Source: Desulfobacterales bacterium
GTDB lineage: Bacteria > Desulfobacterota > Desulfobacteria > Desulfobacterales > JARGFK01
Length of the DNA: 42,813 bases
Direction: 5' to 3'
Assembly (NCBI GenBank): GCA_029211065.1
Contig: JARGFK010000033.1
Coordinates: 1 to 42,813, forward strand
In this document: positions 1 to 5,956 of the stretch, piece by piece
Layout: every line of letters begins with the position of its first letter
How positions within the stretch are numbered: position 1 is the first letter of the stretch
Program-made: the position numbers and the translations under genes
The notes under the pieces: model-generated
Told to the model about the DNA's origin: nothing
The model's input: the letters and a program-made list of their open reading frames with translations, nothing else
The model's database searches: none

Positions 1-26
1 GCCTTCCAAATCAGGGAGCATTTGCA

Positions 27-1037
27 CTACTGTAATCGATTCGGCCACCATCTCCTCAACAGTTCCTGTGCACATCGGGAGGCCTCATCCAGGCGCACGC
101 CCGTTGCGGTAAAATGTCCGGCTGTCAGCCAGGTGTCATAAGGGGTAACATAGTTATTCGCTGCCAGAAAATCCAGGCTTTGTTGAAATTTATTGTATTT
201 TTGGCGCCAGCGAACCGGCAGGATTCCCACACGGCACCCGGCGGTTAAGGCTTCATATACCATGGAAACACTGTCAGCAGTTACCCAAACCGTTAAGTTC
301 TGTTGATACTGCTGTTCAATCCACCCAGGCGGTGTATTTATCGAGTTGAAAAATTCCACTCCGTCGATTCGGGCGGCAAGGTCTTCCAATTGGTGAAGCG
401 TCTCCTGCGGCGTACGCGGCGATGATGAAATGGTCCAACGCAGGTCCGGCCTTTTTTTCACAAGGGTCTTAACCTGATCCATCAATGCTTCGGAATCCCA
501 GTGATGGCTCTTGGGATCCAACCCTCCCACCAGGATCAGACCCCTTCGATGATCATGGGTGTCCGTGTATGCGACATTGTTGGGAGGACCGATGGTCTTG
601 AATATATTATCCAGCAGCTTTTGCCGGTCGTGTTGCGGAACAAAACACAGGTCCATCCGGTCTCTGAAAGGAAAATCAGGCGTCATGCAGGTGACCACCC
701 TGGCCCGGGCGCATTTCTTTTTAAAAAGAAGCATGGGAATGTGGGTGGCGGAACCGGTCCCGATGATCAGGTCCGCACGGTTTTCGCCATGCCTTGGAAC
801 AACCGGCCGAATCAGCAAGGCAATAAATGACAGCCATGCCCGGATGCGCTCGGCCCAGGAAAGGGGATTAACCATCCGGTGAGCCTCCTCAATGACCGTT
901 AATTTCGACAAAGCATTCAACACGCCCCGGGTCTGCTTTTCATGACCCAGGCGGCCATCCCAGAAAGAAACCACCCGCAGCGATTCCAGTCCGTCGGGGT
1001 AATTTGTATCAATGTTTGCAGGTCGCGGTTTACTCAT
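27..1037 (-). CDS. ELM1/GtrOC1-family putative glycosyltransferase
   Basis: A 336-residue protein resembling the Mito_fiss_Elm1 family (PF06258, formerly DUF1022). Bacterial members are regarded as putative glycosyltransferases of cell-envelope clusters. The family signature near the N-terminus is visible (VVSFWDGRLGHEKQTRG, about residues 22-38), and a GTGSATHIP stretch and a late TADSVSMVYEA motif fit a GT-B-like nucleotide-sugar site. I chose the ATG at 1037 over the TTG at 1043. It lies 2 nt after the frameshifted stop of an lpxK remnant, mimicking the usual lpxK-ELM1 junction. Its 5' end is partly duplicated at 3368-3538. The context (lpxK, waaA, O-antigen ligase) points to LPS core or lipid A decoration. 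Donor and acceptor are unknown. Confidence 0.8.
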   Translation of the reverse strand: MSKPRPANIDTNYPDGLESLRVVSFWDGRLGHEKQTRGVLNALSKLTVIEEAHRMVNPLSWAERIRAWLSFIALLIRPVVPRHGENRADLIIGTGSATHIPMLLFKKKCARARVVTCMTPDFPFRDRMDLCFVPQHDRQKLLDNIFKTIGPPNNVAYTDTHDHRRGLILVGGLDPKSHHWDSEALMDQVKTLVKKRPDLRWTISSSPRTPQETLHQLEDLAARIDGVEFFNSINTPPGWIEQQYQQNLTVWVTADSVSMVYEALTAGCRVGILPVRWRQKYNKFQQSLDFLAANNYVTPYDTWLTAGHFTATGVRLDEASRCAQELLRRWWPNRLQ

Positions 1038-1039
1038 AA

Positions 1040-1199
1040 TCAATCCAGCCGATCCCGAATAAACTCCAGAAACGTCCTACTTCCTCTCCGAACAAGACTT
1101 GGGCGCCGATTTTGGCAATATCCCCATCGCGGTATGGATGATAATCCGGAAAGCCGCTGAAGCCTGCCGTTTGACACCCCTGCTTGGCGAACGGCCGCA
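1040..1199 (-). pseudogene. lpxK 3'-end remnant (second copy, decayed)
   Basis: Reverse-strand translation gives GCQTAGFSGFPDYHPYRDGD followed by IGAQVLFGEE. This aligns with the C-terminus of the intact LpxK at 3535-4650 (GCPLVGFSAFPDHHPYTDQD ... IGVQATFGEE). About 34 codons between the two blocks are missing. After FGEE the match continues only in another frame (TFLEFIRDRLD, stop at 1040-1042, against AFRDFIQDRLHA). The fragment therefore has an internal deletion and a frameshift, and no start of its own. It begins immediately after the stop codon of the O-antigen ligase and ends 2 nt before the ELM1 start. It is a relic of a second, diverged lpxK. Confidence 0.85.
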
Positions 1200-2342
1200 T
1201 CACTGCTGCAAAAACACCTGTCGGCGTTGAGAGTAAATCAAACCGATAAAAAAAGAAAGGCTGCCCATAAATCTAAAAGCAAAGAATTGCAAATCAAATT
1301 GCCCCATAATCAAAAAGGCACTTAGACCCAGAATTCCCATGCTCCAGAGAGTATTTTTATGATAAATGAAACGCATCAAATGCCGTTTCAATACAAAACA
1401 AATGGTAAATACCCATATAAGTCCTAGTATCCCACTGCAAACAAACACCTCTAATATAACATTATGGGCTGTAAAAAGGACCAAACCCTTCAAAAATGCG
1501 AGAGGCTTCACACAGCCAATGCCAAATCCCAGGAAGAGGTGTTCCTGAACTGTGGCCTTCAATAAAGCAATCCAAACGCCTCCACGAAGGCTGAGTTGAA
1601 AGCCTTTGTAATTTAAGTAGTATAAGAGTGCAAAAAGACCGAGAAGCATGGCCCCGCAGACTGTTAGTCGAATCCAAGTCTGAATATCTCGTCTGATCGA
1701 CCCCCAAATCATTACAGCGCAGCATACACCCAGCCATGCACCTCTTGAATTTGTTAAAATTAAAAGATATAATCCTATTGCTACCCCTACAATGCTTATT
1801 ATCGAGTTAAGGGATAGACATGACCATTTCTTGTTTCGAACAAGTGGCAAAACCAAGATGCAAAGACCGACCAGATGCACGGCGGCATTGTTGGGGTTCT
1901 TATAATAAGAGAAAAAGAAATGATTTTCCGGATCATGTAAAAAAAGAAAATTCCCCAAAATAACAATAAAAGCCAGAAGATTTACAAATAAAAGTCCTTT
2001 GCGTCGCGCTAATTCCGCAAAAACGAGTGCAAACGGAAAAAAGAGACACCCTCTCAAAACATTATATACCCCATCTGCAGAATGACTGACACTTTGAGAA
2101 AACAACGTAAAGAAGATCAAGTAGGCAAGAAGCAGATAAAATGCTATTCTGATCTGTCTATCTATTTGTATTACTGAGCGATATCCCCACGTGACAAACA
2201 GGGCAGGAATTACCAAAAATGATGAAAGTTTTCCGGGCAGATATAAGCCGATCAGGGCCAACGCCAATAAAATGAGGGAAGCCTGAATAGCTATTGGATG
2301 TTTTATATGGTCCAATTTGAAAGAAAAAATTTTGTTGATCAT
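1200..2342 (-). CDS. O-antigen ligase / Wzy-C family membrane protein (WaaL-like)
   Basis: A 380-residue, very hydrophobic protein with roughly ten to twelve predicted membrane segments. It has the Wzy_C hallmark ILTNSRGAWLG in the middle, a large loop (YKGFQLSLRGGVWIALL), and a late HN motif (TAHNVILEVFVCSG). This family joins or polymerises undecaprenyl-linked glycans at the periplasmic face. Next to lpxK and glycosyltransferases, attachment of O-antigen to lipid A-core is the likely role, but polymerase (Wzy) activity cannot be excluded. The ATG at 2342 follows the upstream stop by 4 nt, with GAAGG just before it. The longer reading from 2405 would overlap the previous gene by 59 nt. Base composition is clearly AT-richer than in the neighbours, suggesting transfer. 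Confidence 0.75.
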   Translation of the reverse strand: MINKIFSFKLDHIKHPIAIQASLILLALALIGLYLPGKLSSFLVIPALFVTWGYRSVIQIDRQIRIAFYLLLAYLIFFTLFSQSVSHSADGVYNVLRGCLFFPFALVFAELARRKGLLFVNLLAFIVILGNFLFLHDPENHFFFSYYKNPNNAAVHLVGLCILVLPLVRNKKWSCLSLNSIISIVGVAIGLYLLILTNSRGAWLGVCCAVMIWGSIRRDIQTWIRLTVCGAMLLGLFALLYYLNYKGFQLSLRGGVWIALLKATVQEHLFLGFGIGCVKPLAFLKGLVLFTAHNVILEVFVCSGILGLIWVFTICFVLKRHLMRFIYHKNTLWSMGILGLSAFLIMGQFDLQFFAFRFMGSLSFFIGLIYSQRRQVFLQQ

Positions 2343-2346
2343 ATTG

Positions 2347-3309
2347 TTATAAACCTTCAATAATGGTTTTGGCACGATGTTGATAAGTGTGGTCTGATAA
2401 AACACGCTTTCTTGCCATCTTAGCCAAGTTATGAGATAGGACTTTATTTTTTCTCAATGCCTCTATTTTTTCGATCATCTCCCTGGGTGATCGAAAAAAA
2501 ATTATCTCTTTGTCCGGTTCAAAATATTCGGAGAGTCCGGATCTGAATTCGACAACTTGCGTAATCCCATATCCAGCACACTCAAAGGTACGCATATTGG
2601 TCCCCTCCCGCACGACTTGGGCATGAATATTAAGCGAGATAGAATATTGGCTGTAAATTTTTCCCATTACGTAATTGGAGACCGGCGGGGAAAAACTTCT
2701 GGGATGTAACCAATAAAGTGAGCTTTTGAGGAAATAGTTACCATACACCTTAAAATCAATCCTGCTGGATAAGAGGGCCTTCAAATAGATGTCACGTTTG
2801 GGATCCTGATTGCCGATAAAGCAGACGTCATGTTGGGTATTGACCGCTTTGAAAGGTTTGTGGATTTCCGGAAGGTGCGCAAATGGAAGAATTCCCCCGA
2901 ACTTTTGTTTTTTAAGATGAGGCACCACTTCATCTCTATAGCCGGGATCAGCAAGGTAAACGCGCCCAAATGGCTCAAGCTGTCCCAAAACCAGCCGTGG
3001 GTCATCAGTAATCCATATGACGTGCTTATCCGAGTGATCTAAAGCTGAAAATTCCTTGATCGTATTAATAAAGATCGCAATATCGTATTCAGTTGAAGCG
3101 ATTTCTTCTGCCAGCCGCATTCCCCATTTTTTTTTATTTTTTCTATAATCCAATTTGTCTTTAAGTCCCACAGGGTAAGTAAAAAACCATTTTACATGTT
3201 CAGACAAATCTTGTAACGCCCGGAAAAAATAGTTGCTAAGTCCCCCTTTCCAGGGTTTGGCAACCAAAATAACCTTGCCGGCAATAAACTTCTTAACCTC
3301 TTTTTTCAT
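2347..3309 (-). CDS. CgeB-like glycosyltransferase family 1 protein
   Basis: About 320 residues from the ATG at 3309. A longer frame from a TTG at 3390 would begin inside the ELM1 remnant and is unlikely. The C-terminal half has the CgeB/Glyco_trans_1_2-type pattern: NIHAQVVREGTNMRTFECAGYG, then LSEYFEPDKEIIFFRSPREM. This is the GT4-like nucleotide-sugar binding region with the usual glutamate (FE). The N-terminal KVILVAKPWKGGLSNYFF resembles a Rossmann-type start. The substrate is unknown. It is probably cotranscribed with the O-antigen ligase, whose start lies 4 nt past this stop. Like the ligase it is AT-rich relative to the lpx genes, consistent with both arriving together. Confidence 0.75.
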   Translation of the reverse strand: MKKEVKKFIAGKVILVAKPWKGGLSNYFFRALQDLSEHVKWFFTYPVGLKDKLDYRKNKKKWGMRLAEEIASTEYDIAIFINTIKEFSALDHSDKHVIWITDDPRLVLGQLEPFGRVYLADPGYRDEVVPHLKKQKFGGILPFAHLPEIHKPFKAVNTQHDVCFIGNQDPKRDIYLKALLSSRIDFKVYGNYFLKSSLYWLHPRSFSPPVSNYVMGKIYSQYSISLNIHAQVVREGTNMRTFECAGYGITQVVEFRSGLSEYFEPDKEIIFFRSPREMIEKIEALRKNKVLSHNLAKMARKRVLSDHTYQHRAKTIIEGL

Positions 3310-3367
3310 TTTGACTGAAGCACCAATTCCAATTCTATTCGTTATGCAACAAACTGAAATTTCCCAT

Positions 3368-3538
3368 TTAAATTGCGGCAGTCTCCCCAATGTCCATTAA
3401 TTTGGCCAGGGCCGCCAGGACCCCGCGGGTCTGTTTTTCATGACCCAGGCGACCATCCCAAAATGAAACGACCTTGAGCGGTTTCAAACCGCGAGGGGGG
3501 GTTGCATCACTATTTTTCAGTTGCGTTGGTATCATCAT
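3368..3538 (-). pseudogene. ELM1-family 5'-end remnant (second copy, truncated)
   Basis: A 56-codon frame whose first ATG overlaps the lpxK stop as ATGA. Its residues 23-41 (KVVSFWDGRLGHEKQTRGV) match the intact ELM1-family protein at 27-1037 almost exactly. The first 20 residues are poorly conserved between the copies. Similarity ends near LAKLMDIGE, and the frame stops at 3368-3370 just before the glycosyltransferase region. Only about one sixth of the gene is left, so no function is expected. The ATGA coupling shows that lpxK-ELM1 was once a translationally coupled pair here. Confidence 0.85.
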
Positions 3539-4650
3539 GCATGGAGCCGATCTTGGATAAAATCCCGAAAAGCCGTTTCCTCTTCTCCGAATGTGGCCTG
3601 GACGCCGATGACAACAAGCTTCAGGGGCCAGTGGATTCTTCCTGAAATTTTGCTGAAATCTTTCTCGGTCGTTGCCAGGGTCTCAGCACCCGCCTGCCGG
3701 GCCGCTTGCAGGATAGCGGCGAGATCCTGATCGGTATAAGGGTGATGATCCGGAAAAGCGCTGAAGCCCACCAATGGACACCCCGTTTCCGTCAGCGAAT
3801 CTCTAAAATTACGATTGTTCGCCAGCCCGGAAAACGCGAAAACCCGCACCTGTTTCATCCCTTCCGGACCCAACGCAGGCGACGCCGTCTGGCCGGCGGG
3901 TTCTTTCGAACCCACCACCCGTGCGATCATCGGCATATGACGGGACCTGAAAACAGGCCGGCGGGGCGCCATTTTCCGGATCTTTTCAACCGTTGCTGTT
4001 TTTTCTTTTGGAGACCGCGTCAGAATAACGGCATCACACCGCAGCAGCGCTTCTCCCGGCTCCCTTAACGTCCCCCTGGGCAGCAGGTGATCGTTGCCGA
4101 AGGGGCGACGATCGTCCAACAGGACCAGATCGATATCCCTTTCCAGCCCGATGTGCTGAAAGGCATCGTCCAGCACCACCACGTCAACGCCGAACGCCCC
4201 AATGGCCGCCATCCCGGATTTGAACCGATCCCGGCCCACCAGCACCGGGATCCCCTTGAGACTTTCCGCCAGCAAATAGGGCTCATCGCCGGCCATTGCA
4301 GGTGTCATGCAGATACGTTGCCCGTCACTGACGATCCCCCCGTTTTTTTCAGCGCCGCCTTTATACCCCCGGCTGATAACCGCTACTTTATATCCGAGCT
4401 GTTGCACCAGCCGGGCCACATAAACGGTCATGGGCGTTTTACCGGTCCCGCCCACGGTAATATTTCCTATTGAAACAACCCGGCAGGGCAACTTTTTTGT
4501 TTTCAGCAAGTGCCGCCGGTAAAGGACCTGCCGGCCCTTCAAGGCTGCCGCATAAAGTCGTGAAAGCAGATACAGCAACAAATCAAACAGATTACATCTG
4601 CCGCTGTCGTCCGTCATGGCGGACTGAACTTTGTTTGTCAGATAATTCAT
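3535..4650 (-). CDS. lpxK: Tetraacyldisaccharide 4'-kinase
   Basis: LpxK phosphorylates the 4' position of tetraacyldisaccharide 1-phosphate to make lipid IVA, at the inner face of the cytoplasmic membrane. The protein (371 residues) has the P-loop GNITVGGTGKTP at residues 62-73, a hydrophobic N-terminal anchor region (about 21-37), DDAFQH, LLPRGTLREP, and the C-terminal GFSAFPDHHPY and TEKDFSK motifs of the family. The start at 4650 overlaps the end of waaA by 59 nt and has a GGA upstream. An alternative ATG lies at 4617. The stop overlaps the ELM1 remnant start. It follows lptF, lptG and waaA in one tight minus-strand transcript. Part of its 3' end is duplicated in decayed form at 1040-1199. 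Confidence 0.95.
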   Translation of the reverse strand: MNYLTNKVQSAMTDDSGRCNLFDLLLYLLSRLYAAALKGRQVLYRRHLLKTKKLPCRVVSIGNITVGGTGKTPMTVYVARLVQQLGYKVAVISRGYKGGAEKNGGIVSDGQRICMTPAMAGDEPYLLAESLKGIPVLVGRDRFKSGMAAIGAFGVDVVVLDDAFQHIGLERDIDLVLLDDRRPFGNDHLLPRGTLREPGEALLRCDAVILTRSPKEKTATVEKIRKMAPRRPVFRSRHMPMIARVVGSKEPAGQTASPALGPEGMKQVRVFAFSGLANNRNFRDSLTETGCPLVGFSAFPDHHPYTDQDLAAILQAARQAGAETLATTEKDFSKISGRIHWPLKLVVIGVQATFGEEETAFRDFIQDRLHA

Positions 4651-5956
4651 TTACGATAATTTCCAAATTTCTTCTCACCGCGCCTTTGTTTTCGCAGAAC
4701 ACCCGATACGCGTTTCGTCCCATCTCATCTGCTTTCAGACTGTTTTCCATCAGCATGTGGACAGCAGTGGACAGTTCCCAGGCATCGCGAACCTGCAGTG
4801 CCCCCCCGGATTCAAGGAGCATCCGGGCGATGGCAATAAAATCGCTCATATCCGGCCCGAAAAGGACCGGTCTGGAAAATGCCGCCGGTTCCAGCGGATT
4901 GTGGCCGCCGCAATCCACCAGGCTGCCGCCGATAAAGGCCATATCGGCCAAGGCATACAAAGCCCTTAAATCGCCGATGGTATCGACGATAATGACATCG
5001 AACGGTCGCGCCTCCTTATGGGAAGACAGGTGTGAAACAAGCGCGGTCGCTATGCCCGCCTGCTGAAACAGGCGGACAACCGCAGCGGCGCGCAGAGGGT
5101 CGCGGGGCGCCACCATCAGGGTCATATCAAAATGGTTGCGCTGCAGCCGGATAAAAACATCCCTAACCACCGCTTCTTCACCTTCATGAGTGCTTCCCGC
5201 CAGCCAGACTTTTTTCCCCGAAGCGATTTTCAACCGCCGGCGCCACTGCTGTATCTGATCGTCTGGAACCGGGTCATCGTTCTGGTCGAATTTCACGTTT
5301 CCGGTCACGATGATCCGGCCGGGAGGGATGCCCAGCCGCCGAAAGCGTTCCGCATCCAGGGAAGACTGCGCACAGATTTTTAAAAGCCCGGAAAACATCC
5401 ACCTGAAAAAAAAAGCAAATCGTTTGTAGCCGCTGAAGGATTTTTTTGAAAGCCGGGCGTTGATGAGCAGAACCGGCACCTTGCGCAGAGTCATCTCATG
5501 TAAAAAATTCGGCCAGATATCGGTTTCGACGATAACGACCAGCGCGGGGTTGATCTTTTTCACAACATGCCTGACCGAAAAGGCCAGATCGTAAGGGTAG
5601 AAAAAAATCGCATCAACAATCCCGGTTAAACGCCGACTTGCCACTTCATAGCCGGTTTGGGTGGAAACCGAAAAAAAGATGCTGTAATTTTCTATTTTAT
5701 TTTTCAATTCCGCTACCAATGAAACTGCGGACAAGACTTCGCCCACGGACAATGCATGAATCCAGACCGGACTTTTTATGTTTTTGCGAACTTCCGGGCA
5801 ATCGATAGCGGCAGGCAGACGTTTAAACCCCAGCCGAAAGGGAAACGTCCGGCGCATCTTCTTGGAAGCCAGTAAAGCAGACAGGATCAGAGGGAGCCCC
5901 AGCACCGTCGCAATAAACAACAGGATATTATAAACGAAAATCACAAGGAGCCTCAC
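4592..5956 (-). CDS. waaA: Kdo transferase (3-deoxy-D-manno-octulosonic acid transferase)
   Basis: WaaA (KdtA, GT30) adds Kdo from CMP-Kdo to lipid IVA at the inner membrane. The 454-residue protein starts with a single membrane anchor (residues 1-30) and has WIHALSVGEV with the conserved glutamate at 73. It carries the family patterns VIVETDIWPNFL, LLINARLS, VTGNVKFD, VWLAGSTHEGEE, and the CMP-Kdo site FIGGSLVDCGGHNPLEPAAF. The GTG start overlaps the lptG stop by 4 nt (GTGA), implying translational coupling. Length is slightly above the enterobacterial enzyme, through loops and tail. The number of Kdo residues added cannot be judged from sequence. Confidence 0.95.
   Translation of the reverse strand: MRLLVIFVYNILLFIATVLGLPLILSALLASKKMRRTFPFRLGFKRLPAAIDCPEVRKNIKSPVWIHALSVGEVLSAVSLVAELKNKIENYSIFFSVSTQTGYEVASRRLTGIVDAIFFYPYDLAFSVRHVVKKINPALVVIVETDIWPNFLHEMTLRKVPVLLINARLSKKSFSGYKRFAFFFRWMFSGLLKICAQSSLDAERFRRLGIPPGRIIVTGNVKFDQNDDPVPDDQIQQWRRRLKIASGKKVWLAGSTHEGEEAVVRDVFIRLQRNHFDMTLMVAPRDPLRAAAVVRLFQQAGIATALVSHLSSHKEARPFDVIIVDTIGDLRALYALADMAFIGGSLVDCGGHNPLEPAAFSRPVLFGPDMSDFIAIARMLLESGGALQVRDAWELSTAVHMLMENSLKADEMGRNAYRVFCENKGAVRRNLEIIVNELSDKQSSVRHDGRQRQM

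Follow-up and report, generated by a model that had tools for sequence, protein, structure and literature searches.

The window analysed in this study is the whole of contig JARGFK010000033.1 (C33; 42,813 nt) of a Desulfobacterales bacterium whose genome assembly comprises 4.94 Mb in 269 contigs. At one end of it, an otherwise canonical lipid A/core operon is interrupted between lpxK and a gene of the ELM1 family, the latter probably encoding a KdoT-like transferase of 3-deoxy-D-manno-oct-2-ulosonic acid (Kdo). The interruption consists of a cassette of two AT-rich genes predicted to act in lipopolysaccharide (LPS) assembly, and it is bordered by partial, diverged copies of the two genes that it separates. 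The insert thus brings one additional lpxK-3'/ELM1-5' segment, split around it, which is the topology of an insertion-duplication. In other lineages of the order, the same joint is occupied by different genes. The extra segment may have been imported together with the cassette from a relative, a reading weighed below against an old duplication in place.

Anatomy of the interrupted operon

All the features concerned lie on the minus strand. In order of decreasing coordinate, they are waaA, intact lpxK, an ELM1 5' fragment, the glycosyltransferase gene, the gene of the Wzy_C-family ligase, an lpxK 3' fragment, intact ELM1 and the start of a GT4 gene:

4592..5956, minus strand: waaA (Kdo transferase; PF04413), the usual upstream neighbour, in an order that matches relatives
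3535..4650, minus strand: intact lpxK (tetraacyldisaccharide 4'-kinase; PF02606, 306 bits; TIGR00682, 210.9 bits)
3380..3787, minus strand: left copy of the duplicated lpxK-3'/ELM1-5' segment, from direct repeats and alignment
3380..3538, minus strand: second ELM1 5' fragment, homologous over about 53 codons; open reading frame (ORF) 3368-3538, 56 aa
2347..3309, minus strand: AT-rich glycosyltransferase gene (PF13524, 106.2 bits); longest ORF from a TTG at 3390
1200..2405, minus strand: AT-rich gene of a Wzy_C/O-antigen ligase-family membrane protein (PF04932, 36 bits against a cut-off of 31.7); likely start, the ATG at 2342
1040..1183, minus strand: second lpxK 3' fragment, decayed, with a 105-bp in-frame deletion and a 1-nt frameshift; open ORF 1030-1203
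882..1183, minus strand: right copy of the duplicated lpxK-3'/ELM1-5' segment, from direct repeats and alignment
27..1043, minus strand: intact ELM1-family gene (PF06258, 217.6 bits against a cut-off of 27); likely start, the ATG at 1037
1..51, minus strand: first 17 codons of a GT4 glycosyltransferase gene cut by the contig end, reading MVAESITVVQMLPDLEG

The duplicated segment was recognised from two ungapped direct repeats, one pairing 882-1072 with 3380-3570 (70% identity over 191 nt) and the other 1114-1180 with 3718-3784 (75% over 67 nt). The copies agree at the third position of 52 out of 86 codons. A tblastn search recovered the second ELM1 piece at E=1e-14 (44 aa) and the second lpxK piece at E=8e-7 (28 aa), which rules out chance similarity of the fragments. 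The insert has a GC content of 39-41% (0.40-0.43 at third codon positions), versus 52-56% (0.58-0.62) in ELM1, waaA and lpxK. Direct repeats, tblastn and base composition confirm what a sequence-only reading of this DNA had described, namely an AT-rich ligase/glycosyltransferase pair between partial duplicates of lpxK and ELM1, and the intact genes were indeed found on the opposite outer sides. That reading placed the lpxK fragment at 1040-1199, with a frameshift and a loss of about 34 codons; the frameshift and the internal loss hold, the loss amounting to 105 bp (35 codons) in a fragment of about 1040-1203. Its view that this is no recent tandem duplication also stands, the copies being too diverged for that (71% identity across 258 aligned nt).

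Homology between the copies ends near 1183 and near 882/3380, identity beyond these limits being about that expected by chance. The limits lie near, not exactly at, the ends of ORFs: the inner lpxK copy loses homology no more than about 20 nt from the ligase stop, and the inner ELM1 copy about 70 nt ahead of the glycosyltransferase ATG. Both remnants, at 1030-1203 and 3368-3538, are short uninterrupted reading frames (57 and 56 codons) that overlap the stops or starts of their neighbours, the ELM1-fragment ORF and the lpxK stop overlapping by 4 nt. These overlaps would allow translational coupling; openness of the remnant ORFs alone is statistically unremarkable.

The left-copy LpxK is a member of its family as judged from its score and from near-invariant residues, 43 of 43 such columns being kept, and intact ELM1 likewise keeps 44 of 44 (the window is itself one row of each alignment). 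The right lpxK fragment, a frameshifted 3' piece with the 105-bp deletion and no Pfam match, fails as a functional lpxK. No second lpxK was found in the genome, which has a single lpxK gene, and a search for further ELM1 sequences returned only the two pieces in the window.

Both outer flanks of the arrangement correspond to the canonical locus, since waaA-lpxK stands on one side and an ELM1-GT4 overlap on the other. The 17 residues of the GT4 start share 14 with the GT4 protein encoded after ELM1 in genome G014 (locus L045), the best of 200 shuffled controls across all 28 relatives' loci with GT4 reaching 8 matching residues. The overlap with ELM1 measures 24 nt, as in 8 of those 28 loci, and 18 or 48 nt in most of the remainder. 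When a relative's GT4 was used as query, no strong match to a continuation of the gene was found on another contig of the assembly (best, 29% identity).

The lpxK/ELM1 joint in relatives

Among 389 genomes of the order, 41 have ELM1, counting that of the window. Loci were taken from 38 of the 40 relatives, leaving out G108 (two contig-edge pieces) and G359 (a 138-aa open frame). G055, which has a PF06258 match without a match to the window proteins, was dropped; L042 and L043, with the same gene maps as the contigs of G127 and G209, were not counted apart; and L044 was used in the ELM1 alignments, outside the 38 loci. Three loci without lpxK in the stretch (L048, L069 and L070) were excluded, giving 35 scorable loci. 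The 58 relatives available for comparison all belong to other families of the order.

The usual order in relatives is lptG-lptF-waaA-lpxK-ELM1, with GT4 following in 28 of 38 loci (one GT4 query, E 1e-10; 4 of the 10 misses end within 1.3 kb); in two loci, ELM1 lies without a nearby lpxK. The uninterrupted waaA-lpxK-ELM1 order that the sequence-only reading anticipated does exist, as lpxK and ELM1 are separated by at most 400 nt in 25 of the 35 scorable loci (at most 30 nt in 21 of these; widest gap, 303 nt). Its expectation of other genes at the same joint was also borne out, in the remaining 10 loci. Three cargo types besides that of the window were found: a Lip_A_acyltrans gene (LpxL-type acyltransferase) in six loci (f35), a four-gene GT2/GtrA/PMT/GT2 block in two loci (f35), and a FAD-type oxidoreductase gene in two loci (f67), one of which adds a gene without Pfam match. 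Cargo was identified by running one member per set through Pfam, the others being assigned by clustering and L055 by sequence. On the ELM1 tree (36 labelled rows, window counted), separation of lpxK and ELM1 requires four changes.

The other joints of the operon were found adjacent in 17 (lptG/lptF), 20 (lptF/waaA) and 29 (waaA/lpxK) of the fetched stretches, and no split was seen at any of them in these stretches except at lptG/lptF in G014; the upstream gene was not found despite room for it in 1, 4 and 4 further loci, respectively. The proposal that lpxK-ELM1 serves as an exchange hinge for LPS genes is upheld in so far as the joint is a recurrent place of insertion, with homologous exchange a putative mechanism.

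In G014, four opposite-strand genes split the lptG/lptF joint (L106, 14646-18974; L045, 665-3163, contig C61). They encode a glycosyltransferase, a methyltransferase, an epimerase-like protein and a GHMP-kinase-like protein (the last two under NCBIfam cut-offs). Around this insertion, no extra pieces of lptG, lptF, waaA, lpxK or ELM1 were found beyond lptF/lptG paralogy. As a separate observation, genes assigned to the same clusters (GT2, GtrA and PMT-like) lie downstream of ELM1-GT4 in G301 (L070) and between lpxK and ELM1 in G297 and G382 (L072 and L075); in G366, congeneric with the latter two, only a 239-nt gap separates lpxK and ELM1.

Origin of the extra lpxK-ELM1 segment

The two remnants differ in their state. 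Over the ELM1 core (36 codons), the ratio of nonsynonymous to synonymous divergence (dN/dS) between the copies was 0.12 (NG86) or 0.20 (YN00), rising to 0.26 over 51 codons, and for lpxK it was 0.39 over 50 codons; all these values are rough, because dS between the copies is near 1. In neutrality simulations, in which third-position identity was held within 1 of that observed and rates were assumed, an ELM1 fragment evolving neutrally throughout the divergence reached a core identity as high as the observed one with P=0.016. A core of 19 residues is identical in both ELM1 copies, and the fragment keeps all 5 near-invariant residues in its span. In contrast, the lpxK fragment keeps 1 of 5 within the DNA homology, Y replacing an invariant His and three being lost to the deletion. 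At sites where the copies differ, residues never seen in 35 relatives number 2 in the ELM1 fragment and 2 in intact ELM1, and 8 in the lpxK fragment against 2 in intact lpxK. The description of both pieces as decayed duplicates consequently holds for lpxK, whereas the ELM1 fragment looks truncated, without clear sign of decay. The weak likeness of the ELM1 N-termini, also pointed out earlier, carries little information, as in the alignment 10 or more residues precede the conserved part in just 6 of the 39 ELM1 proteins from relatives. These comparisons lend modest weight to the view that the ELM1 piece was under constraint for most of the time over which the copies diverged, and suggest that the two copies probably diverged while functional, with truncation coming later.

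We infer the following order of events. The normal Desulfobacterota operon, lptG-lptF-waaA-lpxK-ELM1-GT4, would have been opened at the lpxK/ELM1 joint by insertion of an LPS cassette of two genes, for a glycosyltransferase and a Wzy_C-family ligase, leaving an additional, diverged lpxK-3'/ELM1-5' segment split to both sides of the cassette. This segment would have come with the cassette from a related lineage, two functional lpxK-ELM1 versions thereby meeting in one chromosome. One full copy of each gene would then have been kept, lpxK on the left and ELM1 on the right, the ELM1 piece persisting, cleanly truncated, and that of lpxK decaying. We regard import of the extra segment with the cassette as an evenly balanced proposition, and favour it modestly over an old tandem duplication.

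Several results weigh against this import. A tree built on 86 aligned lpxK and ELM1 residues (37 rows) pairs the two copies as sisters (support 100/96), as does its DNA version (100/97), the left copy carrying the short branch; the sequence-only reading had itself named sister copies as the sign of an old, simple duplication. No donor was found, and a second lpxK or ELM1 piece occurs in none of the 38 relatives' loci (three without lpxK were searched for ELM1 only), where the sole extra matches at E of 0.01 or below were three antisense lpxK matches, none better than 7e-4. The ligase has, besides itself, one weak match in the 389 order genomes and one in 355 genomes of the phylum (E 1e-4 and 7e-4). 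Pfam detected no integrase or plasmid genes among the two cassette genes, and no supported conflict between the trees of intact lpxK and intact ELM1 marked one flank as foreign. As for constraint, dN/dS reached 0.97 over the first 15 ELM1 codons, the neutrality simulations were not significant over all 51 ELM1 codons (P=0.11) or for lpxK (P=0.09), and a half-relaxed ELM1 core (omega 0.5) was compatible with the data (P=0.17). Finally, the copies share no identical run longer than 17 bp, which is poor for homologous recombination. Homologous crossover between sequences as different as the present-day copies would be difficult, and import by homologous ends, as proposed in the sequence-only reading, was not borne out by this run, by the relatives' loci or by the search for a donor; overall, that interpretation is partly supported. 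The incoming DNA may have recombined at another place, with illegitimate joining and deletion creating the inner junctions; alternatively, a tandem pair was already present.

Trees of ELM1, lpxK, rpoB, waaA and lptF placed the window, without resolution, near overlapping sets of genomes. For rpoB, 33 of the 39 genomes with a match were used, G066 (wrong frame, 22.9%) having been removed from the tree. A foreign flank by way of G062, the closest genome in rpoB and only at 42% in ELM1, was not pressed, because G062 groups with G057 there.

An old duplication in place is a tenable explanation, though we hold it to be less than probable. Tandem lpxK-ELM1 pairs would have been functional for long, the cassette would have replaced the middle (ELM1 3' plus lpxK 5'), and the lpxK remnant would have decayed. 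It yields an identical topology, the constraint on the ELM1 piece fits long-lived functional copies, and it predicts the sister relationship. Nevertheless, sister copies fit a donor from the same family as well, and with relatives from other families alone, a nearby donor and an old duplication cannot be told apart. What counts against duplication in place is that no relative's locus has the second piece and that tandem duplicates of a gene normally present once, if maintained for long, would tend towards homogenisation or loss. A larger tandem duplication was rejected: no second glycosyltransferase-ligase copy was found in the genome, and the opening 200 bases of the contig are present a single time.

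A recent, simple insertion-duplication, with both inner copies decaying neutrally and all divergence following truncation, is improbable. Campbell-type single-crossover integration is an insertion-duplication, and the window resembles it in the direct repeats of the target that flank the insert, in its intact outer genes and in its inner copies truncated at the insert. The lpxK remnant and the full 51 ELM1 codons, for which neutrality was not rejected, also agree with such an event. However, the window differs from it in the low identity of the copies and their short identical run, and in its cassette genes, which match PF13524 and PF04932 only and include no vector or integrase gene; moreover, the ELM1 core, with its low dN/dS, its rejection of neutrality, its 19 identical residues and its retained near-invariants, argues against decay from the outset. 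Least probable of all is an assembly artefact joining pieces from related organisms in the sample: the position at a contig end, the fragmented assembly and an estimated contamination of 4.29% would suit it, but one misjoin cannot yield both truncations, because the cassette adjoins truncated ELM1 and truncated lpxK, and the ORFs are co-directional through the junctions.

Cassette genes, the ELM1-family protein and LPS-locus mosaicism

The cassette glycosyltransferase has a single close relative among the order genomes, in G014 (42% identity, E 6e-86; next-best order match, E 3e-19), and none in the phylum genomes (best other, E 4e-20). The G014 relative sits in the same lpt/waaA/lpxK operon, between lptG and lptF. 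The best-scoring ELM1 match is also from G014 (52%), G225 having 54% at a lower score. The second cassette gene product is, by its PF04932 family score, a predicted Wzy_C/O-antigen ligase. Searches for ligase relatives on plasmids gave no match, NCBIfam none at E 0.001 and solved structures none beyond E 0.2; the structure model of the ligase, with a predicted local distance difference test (pLDDT) score of 49, is unusable. The cassette would alter the core or O-chain attachment, staying co-directional with the operon.

In Acinetobacter baumannii, an "ELM1-like mitochondrial fission protein" has been identified as KdoT, with a predicted GT-B fold, which adds a third Kdo to Kdo2-lipid IVA; the GT4 enzyme GnaT acts after KdoT, and KdoT depends on its GT4 partner in the cell (PMC12856342). 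The ELM1 protein of the window belongs to the ELM1/KdoT family, as judged from its PF06258 score above the cut-off and from a model with GT-B-type fold (pLDDT 85, four-sequence alignment). The best PDB matches of the model are UDP-GlcNAc 2-epimerases, followed lower down by glycosyltransferases (best E 1e-9; TM-scores about 0.4-0.6). Like KdoT and GnaT as described there, this GT-B-type protein is paired with a GT4 enzyme, the two genes overlapping in the window and GT4 coming next in most relatives' loci. It differs in that the window has SPRT where KdoT has the SRRT motif: in 39 of 39 sequences the second Arg, taken as the R180 equivalent by motif only, is invariant, and the Arg before it occurs in a single one (G062). 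A further difference is that the KdoT tree, as described there, covers Acinetobacter and Rickettsia (PMC12856342). Family, fold and motif together indicate that the window protein is probably a KdoT-like Kdo transferase, which would add a further Kdo to Kdo2-lipid A, and suggest the same activity for the "mitochondrial fission ELM1" genes that adjoin lpxK in Desulfobacterota.

The event itself is LPS-locus mosaicism, a known kind of change, with an unusual site and scar. Mosaic LPS/O-antigen loci are reportedly exchanged by lateral transfer, the Leptospira rfb cluster being one example. The window resembles such loci in having glycan genes of atypical composition between conserved housekeeping LPS genes, and in that different genes stand at the same place in different lineages. 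What sets it apart is the position within the lipid A operon, where lpxK meets a KdoT-like gene, the cargo of two genes, and the survival of partial copies of the genes on either side. No such arrangement was found described in the one open-access library searched. The window preserves a readable scar of LPS-gene entry into an otherwise conserved operon of a poorly studied phylum, and of greater interest is the recurrent occupation of the lpxK/KdoT-like joint by genes that vary between lineages. A bolder proposal, which we consider unlikely as a whole, is that the joint between lpxK and KdoT-like/GT4 would be an order-wide preferred landing place for envelope-glycan genes, entered by merger with a diverged lpxK-KdoT segment, and that the remnant cistrons, one of which overlaps the stop of lpxK and the other both the ligase stop and the start of ELM1, may couple translation from lpxK through the cassette to ELM1.

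No known RNA was detected in the insert at the gathering threshold, one tRNA being present elsewhere in the window. A promoter scan of the insert gave two promoter-like sites on the minus strand, and the total of 9 is unremarkable against 6.3 (sd 2.3) expected. Inside the glycosyltransferase gene, at 2466-2499, lies a 15-pair inverted repeat with T/A-rich arms and a 4-nt loop.

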